NCBI RefSeq assembly: GCF_000337195.1 | Contig: NZ_AOID01000029.1 | Coordinates: 1-64,000, forward strand | Length of the DNA: 64,000 bases | Direction: 5' to 3' | DNA from: Natrinema versiforme JCM 10478 | GTDB taxonomy: Archaea; Halobacteriota; Halobacteria; Halobacteriales; Natrialbaceae | In this document: piece after piece, positions 29,500 to 44,906 of the stretch | Layout: every line of letters begins with the position of its first letter | Position numbering within the stretch: position 1 is the first letter of the stretch | Made by a program: the position numbers and the translations under genes | The notes under the pieces: generated by a model | Database searches by the model: none | What the model was told of the DNA's origin: nothing | What the model saw: the letters and a program-made list of their open reading frames with translations, nothing else

Positions 29500-30948
29500 T
29501 TAGCTTCGAACTAGTGGGAGATCAACGGGGAGATTCTGATCGACCGTCGTCCGGAAACGTGCGGAGATGGCGACGAGGGTGATGAAGTATACCGCCGCGC
29601 CGAGGCCAACGAGTATCAACACAACGGCAATGTTACTGGCGATAGCGGATACCGTTTCGAACTGGAGACAAATGTAAATGACCGTGCCCATGATACCCGC
29701 AGCGGCCCATTGTCGTCCGATCTCTCCAACGGGAACGGAGAATTCGACCAGCGACGAGAGCGCGATGTAGGCGACCACGAGACTGATGCCGACTGACGAA
29801 GCAGTCGCCGCTGCCGCACCTACGACGCCGAAAATCGGGATCAGACTGACGTTTAGAAGGACGTTCGCGCCGATGAACACGGCGTTGACTTTGAAGGAGA
29901 CGTCAGGTCTGTCGATCGCGTCGAGTGTCATCGTGAACTGTCGCTGGTATCCCTGAATTAACGTTGCGACGATGAGAACTGAGAGGACAGTCGCTCCTCG
30001 GGTGAATTCTTCGCCGTATATTCGGAGTAAGCGCTCGCCGAGCAGCGTTCCACCGACGAGACCCGGAATGAGGATCAATCCGCCGTACGTAAGCGCAGCC
30101 TCGAATAGTTCCGCGACCGATTCTGAGTCATCGTCTGCCGAGAGCGAACTCATCTCGGGGAACAGTGTTTCACTCAGTGAGCCGCCGAACAGTATCAGAA
30201 ACACCGCGATATTCCAGGCCGCCGTGTAGATCCCGACGAGCGACGACGACACGAAGAACCCGAGGACAGCGACATCGACCCAGTTGAACGCTCGAGAACG
30301 GATTTCGCCGAGCCACGAGTACTCTGCGTAGGAGACGATCCGACGGTAGTGCTCTTCAGTCGGGAGTGAGATCGTGTCAAAATGACGGATCGCTATCCAA
30401 AGCCCGAGTACGGAGACGAGTCCATACCCAGCGGTATATCCAATAAAGAGACCAGTGATCTGGAAACCAGCGAGAATAGCTCCGATTTGCACGATGCTTC
30501 GCGTTCCGGTCCGAATCGGGTTGAAGATACCGGAGATATGGACGAGATGTTGTCCGGTCAGTATCGAGTTCACAGTCGACTGGACGGCAGTAACGAATAG
30601 GAATAGTACCACGATTGCCGCAGCAGGATAGCCGATGTAGTCATTTATCTGTTGGTGGAAGAGCAGGGAGAGAACGGCGACGATCAGGAAGAGGCCGAGG
30701 ACGATGGTCCCGCCAGCGATCGTGTAAGCTGCCCCGTCGTCACCCTCGCTGACGCGTTTATTGATCGCACTCGGAACACCCATCTTCACTGCGATCCCGA
30801 GCCAGGCGACTGTCGAGAGAACGAGATAGTAGATGCCGAGCGTCTCGGAACCGAGAAACCGAGCGATAAATATCGTCGCGACGAACCCTAGCATAGACGC
30901 CAAGAATCGGGAAGTAAAGTGAACGATCGATGTCTGGCCCAGTCGCAT
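29500..30948 (-). CDS. flippase of the MATE/MOP (Wzx) superfamily, N-glycan lipid-carrier exporter
   Basis: This 482-residue protein has about 12-14 hydrophobic helices. It starts SIVHFTSRFLASMLGFVATIFIARFLGSETLGIYYLV, which is the polysaccharide-biosynthesis flippase pattern (given here in part). YAEYSWLGEIRSRAFNWVD and YQRQFTMTLDAIDRPDVSFKVNAVF are further Wzx-like segments. In the agl locus it would move the dolichol-linked glycan across the membrane, the role proposed for AglR in Haloferax. It is clearly AT-richer than the flanking genes, suggesting recent replacement within this variable glycan locus. Confidence 0.87.
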   Translation of the reverse strand: MRLGQTSIVHFTSRFLASMLGFVATIFIARFLGSETLGIYYLVLSTVAWLGIAVKMGVPSAINKRVSEGDDGAAYTIAGGTIVLGLFLIVAVLSLLFHQQINDYIGYPAAAIVVLFLFVTAVQSTVNSILTGQHLVHISGIFNPIRTGTRSIVQIGAILAGFQITGLFIGYTAGYGLVSVLGLWIAIRHFDTISLPTEEHYRRIVSYAEYSWLGEIRSRAFNWVDVAVLGFFVSSSLVGIYTAAWNIAVFLILFGGSLSETLFPEMSSLSADDDSESVAELFEAALTYGGLILIPGLVGGTLLGERLLRIYGEEFTRGATVLSVLIVATLIQGYQRQFTMTLDAIDRPDVSFKVNAVFIGANVLLNVSLIPIFGVVGAAAATASSVGISLVVAYIALSSLVEFSVPVGEIGRQWAAAGIMGTVIYICLQFETVSAIASNIAVVLILVGLGAAVYFITLVAISARFRTTVDQNLPVDLPLVRS

Positions 30949-31476
30949 ACGCCTACCGGTGAGCGGGAAGGCAATAAGGGCTTTTTTTCGATACTAACAG
31001 CGAAGAGACTCGAGACACAATTCACGCGTCTCTCTCGGTTTCGATTGTTGCTTACGTTTTGTATCTGAGTTCGTGTAATCGCTGCTCTACCTCGGGATCG
31101 ATATCTCCGTCGGCTTCCGCCACGTTCGACTCGTTCTAAGGTTTCAACAGATGATTCGACGAACTCGCGGTTCGCGGTGCTCTCGCTGCTCGCTGATCGT
31201 GTATTGGCGATTCGAACCGAACCTGATCTTCACGACGAATGGTGTCCACAACTGTTCTACTACCCTGTTTATGACAGACTGCATGCTATGACCCAAAGTA
31301 CGGTTCCCGCTCGCCCTCTGGCAACAGTACTCTGTTGCTGCCTCCTCGAGTCGGTACAAACTCGTAATGGTATGGTCTTCGTCCGGAACGAAGCAACGCC
31401 GATATCCGTATTATCGTGGAAATCACAGTCAAACCCAAGGAAACAATATGCAGTCACTCAAACTGACTCTCGGATA
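30949..31476. other. 528-bp AT-rich gap with decayed coding fragments
   Basis: No intact gene is visible. On the minus strand at about 31063-31140, the translation VAEADGDIDPEVEQRLHELR ends in a stop and resembles the C-terminal tails of haloarchaeal sulfatase-like proteins, but a stop codon cuts it off upstream. This suggests a degraded gene. The plus-strand frame that runs into the GT61 gene from 31177 has poor coding character. Confidence 0.4.
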
Positions 31477-32685
31477 ATGGATTACACCAACGTTCCCAGA
31501 AGAGCGGTTCGAAAGTACCAGAAAGACGGTACTCGAGCACTCTTGAGTGAGGGAACTGCGCTCTTCCTCGAAGATTTATTGTTCAACCAGATTGTTTACA
31601 AACGGTATCTCCGACCACGAACGAGAGTTATTGGCCGCGAAGCGTTGTTTGATTGTGATCAGCTCTATACCTTCGAAACGTTCGATGGCAAGATACCGAT
31701 TAAAGAAGTCTCGCCGGCAGCTCCGAATTCGATGAAGATGGTCGCTCCTGGAGACCGATTCGTCTGTGAAGTACCCGACGTGACTCTTCTCGGTCCGGTC
31801 GGACTGGGTGTCACAAATGAAAATAAAATCTTAGCTGAGACTGTCGCATCACCGGCATTTGACACTCGTCAGTCGCAGCCAAGACGAGTGGGTGACGCAC
31901 TTGCAAAGTCAATGGCAACTAATGGTGTTCGAAGTACAATAGCTGCCGTTCGACCCAAGAACAATGTCACTCCACAGAAGATCATCGAACGTGGTGCTGT
32001 CATCGCATCCCCCTGGAACAATTATTATCACTGGACTGTTGAATGTCTGATTAGAATCCGGTTACTTGAAAGATACGCAGCTGCCACTGGCGAGGCGCCA
32101 CCGATTTTAGTTCCAGAGACGATGACGCCTTGGATGGTTGAATCGCTGGAATTGATGGACTATGCGGGACCAGTCATTAAATGGGATGGTTCAATTATTG
32201 GAGTCGAGACATTGATCATGCCGACGTATCCGGATCCCATCCCGTCGGAATGTTTTTGGCTCCGTGATCGAATGCGATCGAACATCGGGAGTCCAGATAT
32301 CGCAAACGGCAGTGACCGAATTTATATCTCCCGTGAAGACGCCACAGTTCGGGACGTAAGGAATAAAGATCGATTACAGATGACGCTGGATCGATACGGG
32401 TTTGACACCTATATTCTGTCCGAATTATCAGTGGAAGAACAAGTAGGACTTTTCGCTACTGCAGACGTTATCGTTGGTCCACATGGCGCTGGGTTGACTA
32501 ACTGTATTTACGCTGAAGACGTAACAATCGTCGAACTACTCGGTGAACAGAAACGCGGAGCATTTTTCAGACTTTCACAAATTCTAGAACACGAATATAT
32601 CTCGGTAAACTGCGACCAGGTAGGACTCGATCTCCGCGTAAATTGTAAACAACTTAATGAGGTCCTTGATCAGGTCGTTTCATAG
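31477..32685 (+). CDS. GT61 (DUF563) family glycosyltransferase
   Basis: This 402-residue protein has the GT61 features NYYHWTVECLIRIRLLERY (residues about 182-200), the Arg-rich RIYISREDA, and VGPHGAGLTNCIY near 334-344. The GPHGAGL loop is the nucleotide-sugar-binding hallmark of the family, which includes xylosyl- and N-acetylglucosaminyl-transferases. It lies in the glycan locus, so a role in surface-glycan extension is likely; the sugar is unknown. The ATG at 31477 gives MDYTNVPRRAVRKYQKDG, and I see no good promoter. Base composition is far more AT-rich than the rest of the window, a sign of transfer. The stop codon abuts an IS6 remnant, so the C-terminus may be altered. Confidence 0.82.
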   Translation: MDYTNVPRRAVRKYQKDGTRALLSEGTALFLEDLLFNQIVYKRYLRPRTRVIGREALFDCDQLYTFETFDGKIPIKEVSPAAPNSMKMVAPGDRFVCEVPDVTLLGPVGLGVTNENKILAETVASPAFDTRQSQPRRVGDALAKSMATNGVRSTIAAVRPKNNVTPQKIIERGAVIASPWNNYYHWTVECLIRIRLLERYAAATGEAPPILVPETMTPWMVESLELMDYAGPVIKWDGSIIGVETLIMPTYPDPIPSECFWLRDRMRSNIGSPDIANGSDRIYISREDATVRDVRNKDRLQMTLDRYGFDTYILSELSVEEQVGLFATADVIVGPHGAGLTNCIYAEDVTIVELLGEQKRGAFFRLSQILEHEYISVNCDQVGLDLRVNCKQLNEVLDQVVS

Positions 32686-33306
32686 GGTAGTGTTTAGTTT
32701 GTAGCCCTGTACTAGATCGGAAGGCTTGGAGCTAGAATTCTGCTGTTGGCGATTTTGCATGATTGGAACAATTTGAGAACGAAGGAGCACGATGTTTTGT
32801 CTCACTGAGGACACGTTGAGAAATATTCTGATTTCCACATTTTCCGTAGTGAAATTGGAGTCTTGACCGACGGAGGGTAATCCGGAGACGTTTCTCTCCA
32901 TTGACGAGAAACACAGTATTGTCATGCTCATGTTTTAGTGAGTTCGTACAGAAGTGATTATAAGATATTTAAATTGGATAATAAATGTATAGGGAACTTT
33001 TCTTGTTTCTGGATCAACTACACTGTACAGCCAATAGCGGTGTTCATCGAGTTGCAAGACTGTCTCGTCAAGCGTAACGTAATTCGACTTCTCGTATCTT
33101 CTGACTGTAGATCACACTTGTAAACTCTATTGCGGACTGCCTTGTGACTGCATCCGACACCAAACTTCTCGAGTCCTCAAACAATATTTGAAAGTGAGAG
33201 GCCAGCAAGATAGAATCGGATACCGAGTTCCATCAGCTGATGTGGTGTTCGCTCTCTCACCACAAAATCGTGCCGCCTCATATTTCACGCTTAACGAAAC
33301 AGCATC
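32686..33306 (-). mobile_element. degraded IS6-family insertion sequence
   Basis: The segment carries a broken transposase on the minus strand. Its outer edges show weak inverted similarity, GGTAGTGTTTAGTTTG (from 32686) against GATGCTGTTTCGTTAAG (reverse complement of 33290-33306), like worn terminal repeats. I could not find a clean target duplication. The element seems to have lost internal sequence and is too damaged to move by itself. Confidence 0.65.
32733..33281 (-). pseudogene. IS6-family transposase pseudogene
   Basis: Conceptual translation across frameshifts recovers the order of a haloarchaeal IS6 (ISH-type) transposase: HDFVVRERTPHQLMELGIRF, LAGLSLSNIV, then a stop, LEKFGVGCSHKAVRNRVYK, a frameshift, NYVTLDETVLQLDEHRYWLY with SVVDPETRK (first catalytic Asp in LDETV), then after a damaged stretch CVFLVNGEKRLRITLRR, LQFHYGKCGNQN, and HRAPSFSNCSNHAKSPTAEF (second half of the DDE domain). 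At least one in-frame stop and two or more frameshifts make it non-functional. Confidence 0.8.
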
Positions 33307-33772
33307 GCTGGTATAGTCAAACCATTTTCCTCACTATGTGCTGATGATGGCGAGGTGGTCGGAGAATGAAACACGAGACTCACCAGACCGAAATTCAGGT
33401 ATTCAATCCAGTATTTCAAGAATAGTGAACCATTCGTTGTTCCATGGCTAGAGGTTCACTCTGGCGACCCATGGGAAATCACACTTGAGGATCCAACTGG
33501 GATAAATTGCGGAAGCGATAAAGAGATACAGGAACGCCTTCGTGAATTAGTTATAAATAGGACATAATAGGTCCTGTAGTCGGCGTGTCGATTCGACATT
33601 GAGTATCTTGAGCTTCGGTTCACCGAATTGGAATTAGTTCGGATGCTGGCATCATCGCTGAATTGGGTTGTGTCAATCGGACATAGACGTGGTTCTGGTC
33701 CGTCAGTGTACGCTGAGTGGTGTGAGAACTTTTCAGGAACATCTAAGAACGTCCCGTGAAAGGCCAGACATA
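33307..33772. other. AT-rich gap with a coding-like remnant
   Basis: The plus-strand frame 33370-33567 translates without stops to a sequence including SEPFVVPWLEVHSGDPWEI and GSDKEIQERLRELVINR and ends in TAA TAG, but it has no ATG, GTG or TTG start. It looks like the tail of a lost gene; I cannot name the family. The last 200 bp before the glycosyltransferase show no clear TATA box. Confidence 0.4.
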
Positions 33773-34888
33773 GTGAAGATCAGTATCATCACGCCCCGAT
33801 ATCCGCCGACGAACGCGGGCGGCGGTGAGATCAGCGTCAAGTTACTCGCTGAGCAGTTACACGAATGGGAAGGGGTAGATCAGGTCGATGTGTTCTCGTT
33901 CGACGGTGACCAGACAGAGAGTATCAACGGTGTGCCCGTCAGGCGTCTTAATGATGTTCCCCAGTATCCCTACACCGTTCCGAACGAGATCGCCTATAGG
34001 AAACTCAAGGCAGTGGAACCGGACTGCGATGTGTTTCACGCATACAACATGCACCTACATCCCGCCGTCGGGCGACTCTCTGCGACCCTCGAAATCCCCG
34101 CAGTCGCGACGCTAAACGCGTATCCACTCATCAACTGGGGAGAGGTAAACGTGAACCCCTCGACTAAGCGGCGATTATACGAACGGACCCTGTTACGCCT
34201 CGAACGCCCCCGTCTTCTGAGCCAGATGGCAAATATCGACACCTTCCTGCCGCTCAGCAGTAGCGTCAAGCGCGTCTACCAGAGCCACGGGCTCGAGAGC
34301 GCCGACTACGAGGTAATTCCGAACATGCTTGATCCGTCCTTCGAGACCCCCGACAGTGAGAACGAACGAACGGACGAAGTGGAGTTGCTGTATGTCGGTT
34401 ACCTCCGGGACTCAAAGGGCGTTCGGTATCTGGTCGACGCGATGGAGCACCTCCCGGAACGGTTCGAACTGACGGTCGTCGGTGACGGCCCGAAACGGCC
34501 CGATCTCGCGGATCGCGCCGCGGCCGATAGGATCGACTTCACCGGTTCGGTCCCCTACGAGGAGGTCACCCAAGCATATACGGACGCGGACGTGTTCGTC
34601 CACCCCGGCGTCTGGCCGGAACCGTTCGGTCGGACGATCCTCGAGGCGATGCAGGCCGGACTCCCAGTCGTCGCGACGAATATCGGTGGCCCCGCAGAAA
34701 CCGTCCCGCAGTCGGAATTGCTGGCCACCCCCGGTAATCCGGCGAGCCTGAGCGAGAGTATTGAGTATGCTGCCGCGAATCGCGACCGAATTGGTCGAGA
34801 GAACCAGCAACTCGTCGAAGAGCAGTACCATCCTGATGTCGTTGTGCCGAAATTTCACGAGGCCTACAAAAATGTCCTCGACGACTGA
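33773..34888 (+). CDS. GT4-family glycosyltransferase
   Basis: This 371-residue GT-B enzyme starts at GTG with MKISIITPRYPPTNAGGGE, the glycine-rich loop of the N-terminal Rossmann domain. The C-terminal domain has LLYVGYLRDSKGVRYLVDAM, VVGDGPKRPDL and the EX7E-type signature PEPFGRTILEAMQAGLPVVAT. It transfers a sugar from an activated donor to a growing glycan. The GTG was chosen because the frame upstream lacks family similarity. Its composition is intermediate between the AT-rich centre and the GC-rich flanks. Confidence 0.88.
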   Translation: MKISIITPRYPPTNAGGGEISVKLLAEQLHEWEGVDQVDVFSFDGDQTESINGVPVRRLNDVPQYPYTVPNEIAYRKLKAVEPDCDVFHAYNMHLHPAVGRLSATLEIPAVATLNAYPLINWGEVNVNPSTKRRLYERTLLRLERPRLLSQMANIDTFLPLSSSVKRVYQSHGLESADYEVIPNMLDPSFETPDSENERTDEVELLYVGYLRDSKGVRYLVDAMEHLPERFELTVVGDGPKRPDLADRAAADRIDFTGSVPYEEVTQAYTDADVFVHPGVWPEPFGRTILEAMQAGLPVVATNIGGPAETVPQSELLATPGNPASLSESIEYAAANRDRIGRENQQLVEEQYHPDVVVPKFHEAYKNVLDD

Positions 34889-34963
34889 CCCCAGGCGAAC
34901 GCTCCTCGGCCACCGACGACAGACCCGTGAAGGATATGGTCGCTGATTTATAACGCAGACGTA

Positions 34964-36130
34964 ATGACTGATTTCGGAGCGGTCGATCAACGGCTGGCGG
35001 TCGCCCACTGGGGCGAACACGCCAACGGCGGCGGTGACCGTCTCGCCTGGGAACTCGCCCGTGTCTTCGAGGATGCGCCGTTCTACGTCGGTTGGCGTGA
35101 CGAGTCGATCGAGCCGGCCGATATCGAGGCCGAACAGCTCATCCAAGGGCGGCTGCTGAACCGCGCCCTCGAGCGGGGCGGTCTAGCGCGACAGTTCGCG
35201 CATCTCGTGGGCTGGCAGATCGCCGAACCGCTCCGGGAGTACGATGTCCTCGTCACGAGCGGGAACGAACCGTTGTTTTACGTTGCGCCGACCGAGCAGA
35301 CCTGGGTCGCGTACGTTCATCACACGAACCGCAGACAGTCCGACCAGATCACCGAGGTCGAATCCGGCGGCTTTCCTCGACTCCGGCTGCTCCTATACTA
35401 CGCCATCCGGGTCCTGTTCGATCACAACACCCACAGACCGGATCGCTACGTCGTCAACTCCGAACTCGTCAAACGCCGTCTCGAGCGGTACTGGGGCGTG
35501 CCGAGCGAGAAGATCAGCGTCGTCTATCCGCCCGTCGACACCCACGAGTACGATCCGTCCGATGAAGAGACGGACGAGTACTACGCGACCCTCTCGCGGC
35601 TGGACTGGCACAAAGATGTCGATGGGATCGTCAGGGCGTTTAACGAACTCGAGCAGCGACTGCTCGTCGCCGGTGACGGTCCTGAGCGCGAGCGCCTCGA
35701 GCGGCTGGCTGACGACAACGTCGAGTTCCTTGGGTACGTCGACGAAGCCGAGAAACGACGATTGTTATCGGGCGCGAAGGCGTTCGTGTTCAACGGCCGC
35801 GACGAGGACTTCGGGATCGCGCCTGTCGAGGCGCTGGCCGCGGGGACGCCACTGCTTGGTGTCGAGGAGGGCATGACACAGTTTCAGATAGTTGATGAGA
35901 AGAACGGTTATCGTCACACTCGAGCGGGCGAGACCGGACTGTCGCTACCTGAGACGGTCCGGCGATTCGAGACGGACGGAGTCGATTGGACGGCGTCGGA
36001 GATCGCTTCCTTCGCCGACCGATTCTCCGTGGACGCGTTCCGCGAAGGCATGCAAGAGGCGGTTGCCACAGCTGTTTCGAGCGCCGATATCACGCCCTCG
36101 TGGTACGAAGAGTACGAGTCCCGAGAATGA
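34964..36130 (+). CDS. GT4-family glycosyltransferase
   Basis: This 388-residue GT-B enzyme opens with LAVAHWGEHANGGGDRLAWELARVF and has in its second domain LSRLDWHKDVDGIVRAFNEL, LVAGDGPERERLERLA and the donor-binding NGRDEDFGIAPVEALAAGTPLLG. Length and motifs are typical of group 1 transferases. It follows the previous transferase in the same direction after 75 nt and converges on aglG. Acceptor and donor are unknown. Confidence 0.88.
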   Translation: MTDFGAVDQRLAVAHWGEHANGGGDRLAWELARVFEDAPFYVGWRDESIEPADIEAEQLIQGRLLNRALERGGLARQFAHLVGWQIAEPLREYDVLVTSGNEPLFYVAPTEQTWVAYVHHTNRRQSDQITEVESGGFPRLRLLLYYAIRVLFDHNTHRPDRYVVNSELVKRRLERYWGVPSEKISVVYPPVDTHEYDPSDEETDEYYATLSRLDWHKDVDGIVRAFNELEQRLLVAGDGPERERLERLADDNVEFLGYVDEAEKRRLLSGAKAFVFNGRDEDFGIAPVEALAAGTPLLGVEEGMTQFQIVDEKNGYRHTRAGETGLSLPETVRRFETDGVDWTASEIASFADRFSVDAFREGMQEAVATAVSSADITPSWYEEYESRE

Positions 36131-36145
36131 GTTAGCCGCAGGAGC

Positions 36146-37105
36146 TTACGTGGCGCTCGGGGCATCGCGCTCGGTGGTCAGTTCCGCTTGGTCCACCTCA
36201 AGCAGTCCGTGCAGATATCCGAAACCGACTGCTGCGGTGAAGATGAATATCGTCACGAGTTGTTTGACTTGTGCAGCCGATGGCTCACGAACGATGTCCT
36301 TCAGACGCATCGGGACGAAATTAAGCATGAGCTGCCCCAGGTACTCGTTTTTGTCCCCCGATGCTTCAGGCAGCAACAGGTCCATAATCCGTTTCGAGTA
36401 GCCCTGCCAAAAGGACCGGAAGACGAGCCACTGGAAGTCACCGCGATAGTCGAACAGTTTGTGGTTAACCACTGCGTCAGTGTTGTAGATAACGCCTTTC
36501 CCGTACTTGTTGGCCATCCGGATACAGACCGGGGCCTCGTGGGCCTGGATATGGCGATCGCCTTTGCGACCGGTGTTCTCGTCGTAGCCGCCGACGCTCA
36601 GGAACACGTCGCGTCGGAAGGAGATGTTCGAGCCGTACGTGTTCCGTAGTTCTTCCATGTGCTCGCCCATGCCGCGCTCGTCACAGCCGACGAGCCAGTA
36701 GAACTCCGCCGGGAAGAAATCGGGCTTCTCAGTTACCCAATCCGGTTTTGCGTGACCTCCGACCGCGATTGCATCCGTTTCGTCGTAGACGCGAGCCAGT
36801 TCGGCCACCCACTCGTCCTCGGCGACGGCGTCGTCATCGATAAACGCGACGACGTCTCCGGTCGCGATTTCGGCACCGCGGGTTCGACTGTACGAAATCC
36901 CGTGATTCTCGTCATTACAGTGGAGGACGACATCGTCGAGGCCACCGTAGTCCTCTTGAACGCGTTCGAAGACCGGTTCGTTGCCGTCGACGACGATCAC
37001 GACCTCGAGCGGGTCGTACGTCTGGGCGAGAACGCTCTCGACGCACTCCGAAAAGACGTCGTAGCGATCCATCGCGTAGGTACAGATGACGACGGAGACC
37101 TTCAT
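36146..37105 (-). CDS. aglG: AglG-type GT2 glycosyltransferase (glucuronosyl transfer)
   Basis: This 319-residue enzyme has the GT-A beginning MKVSVVICTYAMDRYDVFSE, the donor motif AFIDDDAVAEDEW at about 88-98, and NTYGSNISFRRDVFLSVGGYDE. A C-terminal hydrophobic segment (LVTIFIFTAAVGFGYLHGLL) anchors it. It resembles AglG, which adds glucuronic acid to the dolichol-linked glycan in Haloferax volcanii, and AglM in the same locus supplies UDP-glucuronate. The ATG at 37105 was preferred over an upstream frame start because it gives the conserved N-terminus. Confidence 0.85.
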   Translation of the reverse strand: MKVSVVICTYAMDRYDVFSECVESVLAQTYDPLEVVIVVDGNEPVFERVQEDYGGLDDVVLHCNDENHGISYSRTRGAEIATGDVVAFIDDDAVAEDEWVAELARVYDETDAIAVGGHAKPDWVTEKPDFFPAEFYWLVGCDERGMGEHMEELRNTYGSNISFRRDVFLSVGGYDENTGRKGDRHIQAHEAPVCIRMANKYGKGVIYNTDAVVNHKLFDYRGDFQWLVFRSFWQGYSKRIMDLLLPEASGDKNEYLGQLMLNFVPMRLKDIVREPSAAQVKQLVTIFIFTAAVGFGYLHGLLEVDQAELTTERDAPSAT

Positions 37106-37277
37106 CGGAAACGGGTTTCGGTGAGGCCTGAATAAGCTTTTTCGTTCACACGAGTTCGCTGGCGCGACGGTCACGGAACGCTGAGAGTCACCGAATCGGC
37201 CCCGTTCGACGACGGGATATCAAACACTGACGAGTATATAACAAGACTTATTCTTGGCTTGGGTCTGGTGCAAGCTA

Positions 37278-41334: not shown

Positions 41335-41350
41335 TAGATAAATTTATTTC
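41335..41350 (+). promoter_or_regulatory. TATA box of the DUF7503-like peptide gene
   Basis: An AT-rich stretch ending in AAATTTATTTC lies about 30 nt before the ATG at 41376, and the surrounding 40 bp are the most AT-rich of this neighbourhood. It supports expression of the short gene. Confidence 0.5.
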
Positions 41351-41375: not shown

Positions 41376-41510
41376 ATGTCCGCATCAGACCGCATGAAGG
41401 ACTACCTCGCACAGCACCCACGAATGATCGGCGCTCTGTTCACCCTGTTCGTCCTGCTCAGCCAGGCCGGATCGGTTGTGGCAGGCAGTTCGTCCCAAAT
41501 CGGCCCGTAA
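41376..41510 (+). CDS. 44-residue DUF7503-like single-pass membrane peptide
   Basis: The short gene encodes a peptide beginning MSASDRMKDYLAQHPRM, continuing through a hydrophobic helix IGALFTLFVLLSQAGSVVAG and ending SSSQIGP. I recognise the pattern (charged N-terminus, AxHPRMxGALFT, SQAG, terminal GP) as that of very small haloarchaeal proteins annotated DUF7503; their function is unknown. The helix could be a signal peptide or a membrane anchor. It converges with the CHAT-protease gene, with 77 bp between the stops. Confidence 0.72.
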   Translation: MSASDRMKDYLAQHPRMIGALFTLFVLLSQAGSVVAGSSSQIGP

Positions 41511-41587
41511 TCAGGTTGGTAGTTCCGCAAGAAGGCGTCCACGGAGCGAACTAGGCTAACGGTTTGTTCTTCATCTGTCGCGCTCGC

Positions 41588-43669
41588 TCAATCGAAGATC
41601 GGTGAGCCGATGCCATCGTTCCACTGTAGTTCGCTGTCGACTCGAATCGGAACCTCGTTCCACGTAAGATACTCTTGAACGGCGTCTCTATCGACCCTCG
41701 AGAACGCCGTTCGCCCGGGACTCAAGTGACGGTCCGCGACCGTCGGAAGCGTCGATTCCGTCGCCGTTCCCAGTTTGAATTCCTTGGTCGAATACGATTG
41801 GACGGCGAAATCGAACGGACCGTCGCCGCCATGCTCGAGGTCCACGACCATGGGAGCACCGCCGTCGGACTGTGCGATATCCGCCGAGCCGTCGCCGACG
41901 ATCAGATATTGGTCCCTGAGCGACGAGTTCGTCCGAGCGATTTCGAGTGCGGCCCGAAGCGGAAACCCCCTGTTGAGCAACCGCGCCATGGTCTCGCCGG
42001 CCTCGACGGCGCGGTCGTTGACGACGTCGGTATACGTGCTGACGCCGCCGAACGCGCCGCGTCGGGTGAGCGCCACCCCCTGTTCGTACGAGCGACAGGC
42101 ATTCAGGAAAAAGACGCCCAGGTCGACCGACGAGAGCGAGCGCACGTCGAGGTCGCCGTCGGGACAGCGGATACCGTCCTCGGTCGCGTGACCGATGTAG
42201 TGGAAGAAGTCGTAGCTGCCCTCGGTCAGCAGGTCGGCGAGGCGGTCCGTGGTGACACCGAACTCCGAGTGGATTTCGAACGGCAGGACCTCTCGGTTGC
42301 CGTAGACGTTATCGAGCGCGTCGTGTTCGCGTATCATCCGCGCGTCGTTACAGACGAGCAGGATCTCGATCGATTCGTTTCTGGTATCGCGCTCGAGTTG
42401 GTTTCGGTACGCCTCGAGGGTCGCTTTCGAGGCCTGCTGGGGGATGTCGTCGCCGAACCAGGCGTGCTCGACGGATTCGTCCGTGATGTCGGGGACGACG
42501 AACGACCGGTCGGGCCGCGGCGTCGGCGACGAGTCGCGGGTCCGACTCGCAGAGCGAACCAGCCCCGCCGCGCCGCCGGAGTCGGGGATCGTTTCGGGCG
42601 GTTCGCCGCGCACGTCGCGGACGACGCCGAGTTCGTTGACGATAAAGGGCAACAACTCGACGGTATCGGGGTCCGCTGGCACGTGTGCCGTCAGCGGCCA
42701 CCGGGGCATGTGTGACGCGAGTTGCTCGTAGGGAACGTCGAGATACCGATCGAGCCGTTCCGGAAGGTCGGCCTCGTAGATCTCCGCGAGATCGTAGGGC
42801 AGTTCGTCCTCGAGCAGCCGCCGTTCGTGGAGTTCGTAGCGGTAGATTCCCTCCGTCCGCGTCAGACAGTCGAGGAAGAAAAACCGCTTGAGCAGCCTGG
42901 CGACCGCGTCTTCGAACGGACGCTCGGTCGCCAGCGAGTGTTCGAACCGGGGTGTCTCGAGGGTCGGATCCGATCCCGGTCGAATCGTCGCTCCGAGGAA
43001 GAACCCGAGCGGCGCGGCCTGATAGAGGGCGCTGCGGTCCGGCGGAACGGTGAGGACGACCTCGTCATCGTCGTCCGGTCGGTCGACGGCGTCGGGAATC
43101 CGGAGCCGGTCGCCCAGTTCGATCAGCGGTGGATGGCCGCGCAGTGTCGGCCACGTCCGCTCGGGCGATTTCGTCTTCAGCGCCGAGGGAAGCGCCGACA
43201 CGGCTTCCATCATCGATTCGATGTCGGTGGGCGTCGTGATCGTCGCCGCGGGTCGGTCGTGGGGCGACCGTGCGCCGAGTTCGATGTCGGTGGCCTCCTC
43301 GAACGCGATCCGGATCGACGTGAGCCCGATGTCGATGGTGCCGGCGGCGTCGATCCGACAGTACAGTCTGATCGGTCCGCTCAGCCCGACGAACTGGGGT
43401 CGCTCCTCGAGCCGGACCGTCTCCCCGGCGTCGAGGCTGGCTTCCGTTTGCCCGTCGCTGTCGTGGACGGTGACCGAATACAACTGGTCGAAGACGAGCG
43501 CATCCGTCTCGATCGCACACTTCGTATCGATCGGAAAACAGAATCGATCGGGTTCGAGGACGGCCGGCGAAACCGGCGACGGCGTCCCGATGTGAAGGCG
43601 GCGTTGTTCGATCGAGTCGTATACCTCGAGGCCCGTCCCGTCTGCCGTCTCAATGAACTCGATCGTCAT
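41588..43669 (-). CDS. CHAT-domain caspase-like protease
   Basis: This 693-residue protein ends in a CHAT (clan CD peptidase) domain. The catalytic dyad is seen as FFHYIGHATEDG with His494 and VFFLNACRSYEQG with Cys525, at the spacing usual for caspase-like enzymes. The 470 residues before it have no repeats that I recognise; they begin MTIEFIETADGTGLEVYDS and include a possible beta-rich sensor and a helical middle. CHAT proteases in bacteria act in defence and cell-death systems after activation by partners. The upstream AAA+ gene (same strand, 70 nt away) may be a partner. Its own TATA-like CAATCTATTTTG lies about 36-45 nt upstream. Confidence 0.85.
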   Translation of the reverse strand: MTIEFIETADGTGLEVYDSIEQRRLHIGTPSPVSPAVLEPDRFCFPIDTKCAIETDALVFDQLYSVTVHDSDGQTEASLDAGETVRLEERPQFVGLSGPIRLYCRIDAAGTIDIGLTSIRIAFEEATDIELGARSPHDRPAATITTPTDIESMMEAVSALPSALKTKSPERTWPTLRGHPPLIELGDRLRIPDAVDRPDDDDEVVLTVPPDRSALYQAAPLGFFLGATIRPGSDPTLETPRFEHSLATERPFEDAVARLLKRFFFLDCLTRTEGIYRYELHERRLLEDELPYDLAEIYEADLPERLDRYLDVPYEQLASHMPRWPLTAHVPADPDTVELLPFIVNELGVVRDVRGEPPETIPDSGGAAGLVRSASRTRDSSPTPRPDRSFVVPDITDESVEHAWFGDDIPQQASKATLEAYRNQLERDTRNESIEILLVCNDARMIREHDALDNVYGNREVLPFEIHSEFGVTTDRLADLLTEGSYDFFHYIGHATEDGIRCPDGDLDVRSLSSVDLGVFFLNACRSYEQGVALTRRGAFGGVSTYTDVVNDRAVEAGETMARLLNRGFPLRAALEIARTNSSLRDQYLIVGDGSADIAQSDGGAPMVVDLEHGGDGPFDFAVQSYSTKEFKLGTATESTLPTVADRHLSPGRTAFSRVDRDAVQEYLTWNEVPIRVDSELQWNDGIGSPIFD

Positions 43670-43739
43670 GCCCGGTTACACTCCCGTTAGCGGGGACCGA
43701 CAAAATAGATTGTCCATCCGGGGGCCGGCCCTCGCCCGC

Positions 43740-44906
43740 TCATAGCGACTGCCCCCTGGTCGGAGTTAGCGACCGAAATGCGATCGTCGGAAACCGCGGC
43801 TCGACCGTACTCGGCCGCCGACCGCTGCCGTTCTCGGCGGTCGGCAACGGCACGCGGTCGATGACGCCGCGGTCCGCGAGTTCGTAGAGGAACCGCTTGA
43901 CCGTGCCGTCGGTCAGCGACGACCGATCGGCGATCGCGGTCGCGATCTCGCGGATCGGTCGGTCGGCTGATTCGATCTCGATGAGTTCCAGTAGCACCTG
44001 TTGGCGGGTCTCCGAGAGGGCGAGCGGCCGAGCGACGTGGACGCCGTCGTCCGGAACGGCCGCTCGAGCCGTCTCGAGGTGACGGGGTTCGATCCGCTCG
44101 GCGTCGTCCTCGCTCGCGAGCACGGCGGCACCGAACAGGGCCGCGAGCGCGTCGTGGGCGCTCCCGGCCGCCCAGACCGCGAGGTCGCGGATGGCATCGT
44201 GATCGAGCGCGCCCGCCGCGAGGCCCGTCGAGGCGCGGTCGGTCACCACGTCGACGAGTTCGTGATCGCGGTAGGGCGGGACGGTGATCGCGGGCCCCTC
44301 GTGGCTCTCGGGCTCCCGGTGGCCGACCGCGACGGTGGCGGTGCTATCCGCGACCGGCGCGAGCAGTTCCCGGACCCGCTCGACGCCCAGCGTCTCGGGT
44401 TCGTCGTGGTGGTCGATCGCGACGATCGCGCGCCGGTCGGGCCGGGCGAGCCGCTCGCGGATGCGCTCGCGTAGGTCGTCAGTACCGACGCCGCTCTCGG
44501 GAACCCGTTCGCTCGAGACCCCCGAGAGCACGGCTCGGTAGAACGCAAACGCGCTCTCGACCTGCCGGCCGTCGACGGTGACGAACCACGTGGCCGGATC
44601 GGTGTGTCCGCCCCGCGTCGTCGTGACGATCGCCCGGTTCGAGCCGCCGAACTGGTCGTTCAAGGCGTCGAATAGCGCGGTGACGACGGCCGACGTGCCC
44701 GACCCCGACGGACCGACCACCGCGACCGGCGGCGGCAACTCGCCCTCGAAGACCGGCTCGAGCGCGTCGAGTAACTGCTCTAACACGGGGCCGCGACCGA
44801 CCGGTTCCGGTCGGTGGACGGCCGGGCTGAGTTGGTCGCGGTCGACGACGACGCGCTGGCCCTGTCGTGCCGATCGGCGGCGAGCGATGCGCTCCTGGAG
44901 GTCCAT
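43740..44906 (-). CDS. Cdc6/Orc1-like AAA+ ATPase with winged-helix C-terminus
   Basis: This 388-residue protein has an AAA+ core with P-loop-like GPSGSGTS at residues 65-72, where the usual lysine is replaced by threonine, and Walker B IVAIDHHDEP at 161-170. The C-terminal region (about 290-345) has LSETRQQVLLELIEIES and DRSSLTDGTVKRFLYELADRGVIDRV, a winged helix as in archaeal Orc1/Cdc6. The missing lysine makes a replication initiator role doubtful. The start ATG shares one base with the glpC stop (TAATG), which shows coupled translation with the glycerol operon. The gene also leads toward the CHAT protease. Confidence 0.75.
   Translation of the reverse strand: MDLQERIARRRSARQGQRVVVDRDQLSPAVHRPEPVGRGPVLEQLLDALEPVFEGELPPPVAVVGPSGSGTSAVVTALFDALNDQFGGSNRAIVTTTRGGHTDPATWFVTVDGRQVESAFAFYRAVLSGVSSERVPESGVGTDDLRERIRERLARPDRRAIVAIDHHDEPETLGVERVRELLAPVADSTATVAVGHREPESHEGPAITVPPYRDHELVDVVTDRASTGLAAGALDHDAIRDLAVWAAGSAHDALAALFGAAVLASEDDAERIEPRHLETARAAVPDDGVHVARPLALSETRQQVLLELIEIESADRPIREIATAIADRSSLTDGTVKRFLYELADRGVIDRVPLPTAENGSGRRPSTVEPRFPTIAFRSLTPTRGQSL

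Follow-up and report, generated by a model that had tools for sequence, protein, structure and literature searches.

In a 64,000-nucleotide stretch of the haloarchaeon Natrinema versiforme JCM 10478 (contig NZ_AOID01000029.1, positions 1 to 64,000; hereafter the window), a gene encoding a 44-residue membrane peptide of the Pfam family DUF7503 faces, tail to tail, a gene encoding a 693-residue predicted cysteine protease of the CHAT type. We found that the two genes recur together across the haloarchaea, and we regard them as almost certainly a functional unit. An initial annotation of the window, made from its sequence, had joined them to an adjacent AAA+ ATPase gene in a candidate three-gene system with possible links to defence. 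The coordinates and descriptions of its three open reading frames (ORFs) were confirmed (Table 1); the three genes are real but are not one system.

The DUF7503 peptide and its CHAT partner

The window peptide matched the Pfam DUF7503 model over residues 5–44 with 75.4 bits (cut-off 27). It consists of a variable N-terminal tip, the juxtamembrane motif YLAQHPRMIG, a hydrophobic core, SQAG..VA, a short tail and a terminal GP. The same plan was seen in 103 unique DUF7503 sequences of 41–48 residues, all of which start with ATG and 97 of which end in GP; their shared pattern is YL..HP[RK]M.G.LFT..LL[ST]QAG..AA, followed by a short variable tail and GP. By the positive-inside rule, the N-terminal end of the peptide is predicted to be cytoplasmic. 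The ratio of nonsynonymous to synonymous change (pN/pS) had a median of 0.30, against 1.47 in the +1 frame of the same DNA, showing that the peptide is under purifying selection. Constraint was strongest in the juxtamembrane motif and the transmembrane core (0.25–0.28) and moderate in the tail (0.41), and the terminal GP showed no amino acid change in the compared set. Because an AT-rich, TATA-like block recurs ∼30 nucleotides (nt) before the DUF7503 start codon in other genomes, the gene probably has its own promoter and its transcript little or no leader.

The 693-residue protein had no relevant sequence match in Pfam, NCBIfam or the Protein Data Bank (PDB), and the CHAT models of Pfam and NCBIfam were unmatched at E < 1. 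It was therefore classified by fold and catalytic dyad, as a predicted diverged CHAT subfamily. In its AlphaFold model (pLDDT 85.9), residues 429–600 superimposed on the SAVED-CHAT structure 8tl0 with a Z-score of 19.0 (2.2 Å over 170 residues, 16% identity); separase and gingipain were matched at Z 14–18, and the TPR-CHAT protein of Craspase at Z 12–14, over both the catalytic fold and the pseudo-caspase half. In an alignment of 46 relatives with 33–71% identity to the window protein, His494 and Cys525 were invariant, as were His490 and Asn523; the dyad residues lie in the contexts ..HYIGH.. and ..LNAC.., respectively, on adjacent strands. The fold match and this alignment bear out the initial annotation of a CHAT protease with an intact His494/Cys525 dyad, and we assign the protein, as a prediction, to the CHAT-fold (clan CD) cysteine proteases. 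The N-terminal domain is modeled as β-rich up to about residue 146 and α/β beyond it. Compared by itself, it gave weak β-sandwich matches (Z 7–9), from which no function was drawn.

To describe the arrangement of the two genes, we compared 60 distinct DUF7503 loci, which represent nine haloarchaeal families and of which 56 lie outside Natrialbaceae; the set was spread over many genera rather than drawn at random and includes three loci chosen because their coordinates hinted at a missing CHAT gene. A CHAT gene lay convergent and tail to tail beside the peptide gene at 58 of the 60 loci. The distance between the two stop codons was mostly −23 to +28 nt, with a 4-nt overlap at 16 loci, a 17-nt overlap at seven and abutting genes at nine; at the Natrialbaceae loci linked to the glp cluster it was mostly 45–200 nt, so that overlap is not universal. 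At the two exceptions (L107 and L208) both genes are still on the same contig, and these loci look like local rearrangements. Among the three seemingly unpaired loci, L209 and L210 proved to be paired, and the CHAT gene of L208 was found elsewhere on its contig. Convergent gaps in a 49-kb control stretch were mostly 5–150 nt, so short gaps alone are not unique; what is notable is the conserved arrangement of the pair rather than the short gap. The geometry is kept at unrelated genomic positions, and loci lacking the pair exist within the same genus. The adjacency of peptide and CHAT is far beyond chance.

The two genes were also inherited together. DUF7503 was present in 164 of 194 haloarchaeal genomes, and a CHAT profile was run on 103 of the genomes outside Natrialbaceae, with matches divided into type A (full length, above ∼720 bits), type B (full length, lower score) and type C (similar mainly over residues 1–360). 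Type-A CHAT was found in all 79 DUF7503-positive genomes and was absent from 22 of the 24 DUF7503-negative ones, counts taken over genomes that are not phylogenetically independent; the two exceptions, G186 and G226, belong to one genus (g60) and carry type-A CHAT without the peptide. DUF7503 never occurred without CHAT among the 103 genomes. Copy numbers were equal in nearly all cases (three of each in G145, G194 and G201), G216 being an exception with seven against five. In G144 a frameshifted CHAT gene sits beside a weak DUF7503 match, and the pair therefore appears to be decaying together there. The proposal that peptide and CHAT belong together was thus upheld by the 58 convergent loci, the near 1:1 copy numbers and the joint absence, and a peptide family living mostly apart from CHAT was not seen; the opposite was found.

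The pair ranges over the class Halobacteria, on chromosomes and on 25 megaplasmid records. Four sampled genomes from a single further family of the phylum had distant CHAT relatives but no DUF7503 match above the cut-off. No match to the pair was detected in a phage collection or in viral contigs, and the PADLOC models yielded only non-significant hits to DruK (0.028) and mad8 (0.016) and no defence family. The suggested defence role and proximity to defence genes found no support in any of these searches, and the reading of the locus as a defence island was abandoned.

A comparison of non-overlapping ORFs around CHAT revealed no shared partner gene beside it other than DUF7504. At 16 of the 60 loci, DUF7504 immediately precedes CHAT on the same strand. 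Loci with this arrangement include L086, L089, L091, L093–L095, L120, L123, L204, L206 and L207; at L206, DUF7504 is fused to HalOD1, an output domain of haloarchaea. We regard DUF7504 as a candidate protease regulator. Four DUF7504 genes are present in the window genome, and the window CHAT gene adjoins none of them.

In a tree of 105 proteins, the DUF7503-linked CHATs grouped with one type-B clade, and a second type-B clade and the type-C proteins fell outside. The type-B paralogues have the dyad and mostly lack a peptide; peptide partners were sought for them and found only at L159 (8671–8913, − strand) and L160 (6081–6353, + strand). These two convergent peptides are diverged and fall below the Pfam DUF7503 cut-off but are built alike, carrying HPR, a hydrophobic stretch and TQGT and ending in STGP; they are possibly a second peptide family. 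Type-C proteins (L164–L172) share the CHAT N-terminal domain, and their C-terminal part aligns to CHAT but is without the His/Cys dyad; they may be pseudoproteases. Two genomes, G217 and G030, had 12 CHAT-family matches each, those of G217, a genome with no DUF7503, being only type B or partial.

Possible roles of the peptide

Our overall reading, to which we give a little less than an even chance, is a two-gene haloarchaeal module in which the membrane micropeptide is the target or effector of the protease. CHAT would be a cytoplasmic cysteine protease of caspase fold and DUF7503 its dedicated single-span partner, placed in the membrane with the N-terminus inside and the C-terminus outside. 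The protease would be activated through its N-terminal domain, in about one-quarter of the loci probably through DUF7504/HalOD1. It would recognize the conserved cytosolic HP[RK]M motif and cleave or otherwise switch DUF7503, which in turn would act as the membrane effector of a stress response or of cell death. Such a device would follow a caspase/gasdermin-like logic with a target of 44 residues. Since CHAT can occur alone and the peptide was never seen without CHAT among the 103 genomes, a role of the peptide that needs the protease, as substrate and effector or as a neutralized toxin, is preferred over mere restraint of the protease; the substrate/effector mechanism as such is possible rather than probable. 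Several observations weigh against it. All gasdermins are far larger than the peptide, which shows no autoinhibited domain; unlike typical defence systems, the module is present almost universally and often on chromosomes beside housekeeping genes, and the PADLOC, phage and viral searches revealed no link to defence genes; the cleavage preference of CHAT is not readable from its sequence. We rank a membrane substrate/effector first, followed by an anchor or regulator, a toxin-antidote pair and a secreted signal.

The peptide might instead remain uncleaved and serve as an anchor, sensor or inhibitor that retains CHAT at the membrane and controls its activity. We consider this unlikely, although the near 1:1 gene counts would fit it and the cytosolic YL..HP[RK]M.G motif is constrained as much as the transmembrane core, as for a docking motif. 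The type-A CHATs without a peptide in G186 and G226, and most type-B proteins, argue that the peptide is unneeded for a tolerable protease, and the constrained GP at the outer C-terminal end would be left unexplained.

An improbable alternative with the correct asymmetry casts the peptide as a small hydrophobic toxin and CHAT, perhaps together with the antisense 3′ end of its mRNA, as the antidote: the peptide was not found in any CHAT-less genome, and CHAT can occur alone. The geometry of the pair is compatible with a type I toxin-antitoxin system: the stop codons abut or overlap, making 3′ overlap of the transcripts very likely, and T-runs downstream of CHAT are rare up to the distal end of the peptide gene, although this signal is mild. 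However, the peptide core is more conserved than is usual for type I toxins, the presence of the pair is core-like rather than patchy, and the wider gaps at the glp-linked loci of Natrialbaceae mean that overlap is not a constant feature.

A secreted signal is more doubtful again. Cleavage after an A-x-A-like site would free a peptide of 6–9 residues ending in GP, to be sensed through the CHAT system; small residues at −3/−1 (Ala in 94% of sequences at column 41), the short variable tail and the near-invariant terminal GP fit such a signal. However, the tail is not diversifying at its pN/pS of 0.41, conservation of the n-region far exceeds that of a plain signal peptide, and the neighbor comparison found no shared exporter or receptor gene. 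A variable secreted pheromone was rejected because the tail does not diversify, and the secreted signal was retained as a rival to the substrate/effector reading.

The Cdc6-like ATPase and the window locus

The ATPase matched AAA_16 (E = 6.6e-15) and Cdc6_lid (E = 1.7e-6, 28.3 bits, cut-off 27), and its match to TIGR02928 (E = 6e-21, 74.7 bits) was below the cut-off of 181; we describe it as Cdc6-like by these matches and not as a confirmed initiator. In the proposed AAA+ winged-helix architecture the AAA+ part held, whereas the winged helix depends on sub-threshold helix-turn-helix matches. The lysine-less P-loop was correctly noted: it reads GPSGSGTS, with Thr replacing Lys, and the same replacement occurs in 22 of the 23 P-loops recovered from those glp-linked homologues that match best. 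This K-to-T Cdc6-like ATPase is conserved beside glpC, of the anaerobic glycerol-3-phosphate dehydrogenase cluster, in many haloarchaea.

The gene order aglB-(popT)-DUF7503-CHAT-ATPase-glpCBA is widespread in Natrialbaceae and by itself could be plain synteny. Among the 30 best ATPase loci, glpC adjoins the ATPase gene in every one, including loci without CHAT, and in the window the ATPase start codon overlaps the glpC stop codon. Stretches around the ATPase gene without CHAT include L181, L183, L186–L188, L191 and L201–L203, where popT or aglB is often directly next to it; filled and empty sites occur within one genus, L181 and L183 being empty. The ATPase is present in genomes lacking CHAT (for example, G136, G153, G174 and G176) and missing from genomes bearing the pair (for example, G141, G144 and G145). 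The ATPase gene belongs to the glp cluster; its overlap with glpC and the empty loci of the same genus indicate that the CHAT/DUF7503 pair was inserted between the ATPase gene and popT/aglB. A three-part system with the ATPase as activator of CHAT, suggested by the ATPase gene immediately preceding CHAT on its strand in many Natrialbaceae, in the place that DUF7504 takes in other families, is thus very improbable given the 30 glpC-linked loci and the many genomes in which ATPase and CHAT are separated or one of them is absent. The ATPase was dropped as a third component, its adjacency to CHAT not being specific.

Table 1. Features of the DUF7503-CHAT locus and the adjoining ATPase gene in the window
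Feature	Position	Strand	Basis or remark
Putative TATA-like promoter element AGATAAATTTATTT	41336..41349	+	∼26–40 nt 5′ of the peptide ATG; recurrence of the AT-rich block
DUF7503 membrane peptide, 44 residues	41376..41510	+	Pfam PF24335, E = 2.5e-21
Convergent gap between stop codons, 77 bp	41511..41587	.	∼0 or negative in most other families
Type-A CHAT protease (predicted), 693 residues	41588..43669	−	Fold match and invariant dyad
CHAT caspase-like region, residues 323–600	41870..42703	−	Pseudo-caspase half and catalytic half; structural alignments
Predicted catalytic Cys525 codon	42095..42097	−	Invariant alignment column
Predicted catalytic His494 codon	42188..42190	−	Invariant alignment column
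CHAT N-terminal domain, residues 1–322	42704..43669	−	β-sandwich (residues 1–136) and α/β part; pLDDT 93
Orc1/Cdc6-like ATPase, lysine-less P-loop	43740..44906	−	Last gene of the glpABC cluster; outside the module

Elsewhere in the window, the GC content falls to 46% at positions 29500–37200, where flippase-like and glycosyltransferase-like ORFs adjoin an aglB/STT3-like gene; this stretch is probably a horizontally acquired glycosylation cluster.

Relation to known systems and significance

According to the part of PMC9079055 that discusses Johnson et al., caspase-like proteases activate neighboring membrane effectors in gasdermin systems. The bacterial gasdermin pairs described there, like the pair reported here, place a caspase-fold protease beside a dedicated membrane-acting partner, and the His/Cys dyad is needed (PMC9079055). 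In contrast, the haloarchaeal partner is a 44-residue single-span peptide without a gasdermin fold, its gene is convergent with that of the protease, and the pair is near-universal in one archaeal class. By analogy, caspase-gasdermin systems are the closest precedent in logic, and the haloarchaeal pair is not a member of them. With Craspase (gRAMP and TPR-CHAT/Csx29, substrate Csx30; PDB 8eex, 7y85 and 8d9f), the haloarchaeal protein shares the CHAT catalytic fold and the pseudo-caspase half, whereas its N-terminal part resembles a β-sandwich and has no TPR, and no partner gene besides DUF7504 is shared among its loci. The SAVED-CHAT of type III CRISPR is the closest solved CHAT domain, but only the CHAT part aligns, and no CRISPR gene is shared among the neighbors.

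The components are catalogued, and their pairing seems undescribed. Both DUF7503 (PF24335), of which the window peptide is a member, and DUF7504 (PF24336), the frequent upstream gene elsewhere, are function-unassigned Pfam families, and some CHAT copies are annotated as "caspase family" or "CHAT domain-containing." The open literature, a coverage that leaves out most subscription papers, yielded no paper naming DUF7503, DUF7504 or the CHAT domain with Haloferax or haloarchaea.

A caspase-like activity that cleaves after Asp has been reported for Haloferax volcanii without a gene, and archaeal genomes are said to lack clear homologues (PMC3615174). H. volcanii carries both DUF7503 and DUF7504, as the control rows of our searches showed. 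That the pair is the genetic source of this activity is a guess. The broader proposition of a class-wide caspase-type switch, in which CHAT acts via the 44-residue peptide as its sole effector and also underlies, genetically, the caspase-like activity reported for Haloferax and its relatives, has in our judgment a low probability.

Most haloarchaea apparently have, in their normal gene complement, a protease of caspase fold paired with a dedicated micropeptide, and the pair may act as a switch in stress or cell death. It offers a concrete gene candidate for the orphan haloarchaeal caspase-like activity (PMC3615174), and H. volcanii, which carries the peptide family and DUF7504, is a genetically tractable model. 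Should the peptide indeed act as the effector, a caspase-type protease would here have a very small target, with a bearing on how such switches began.

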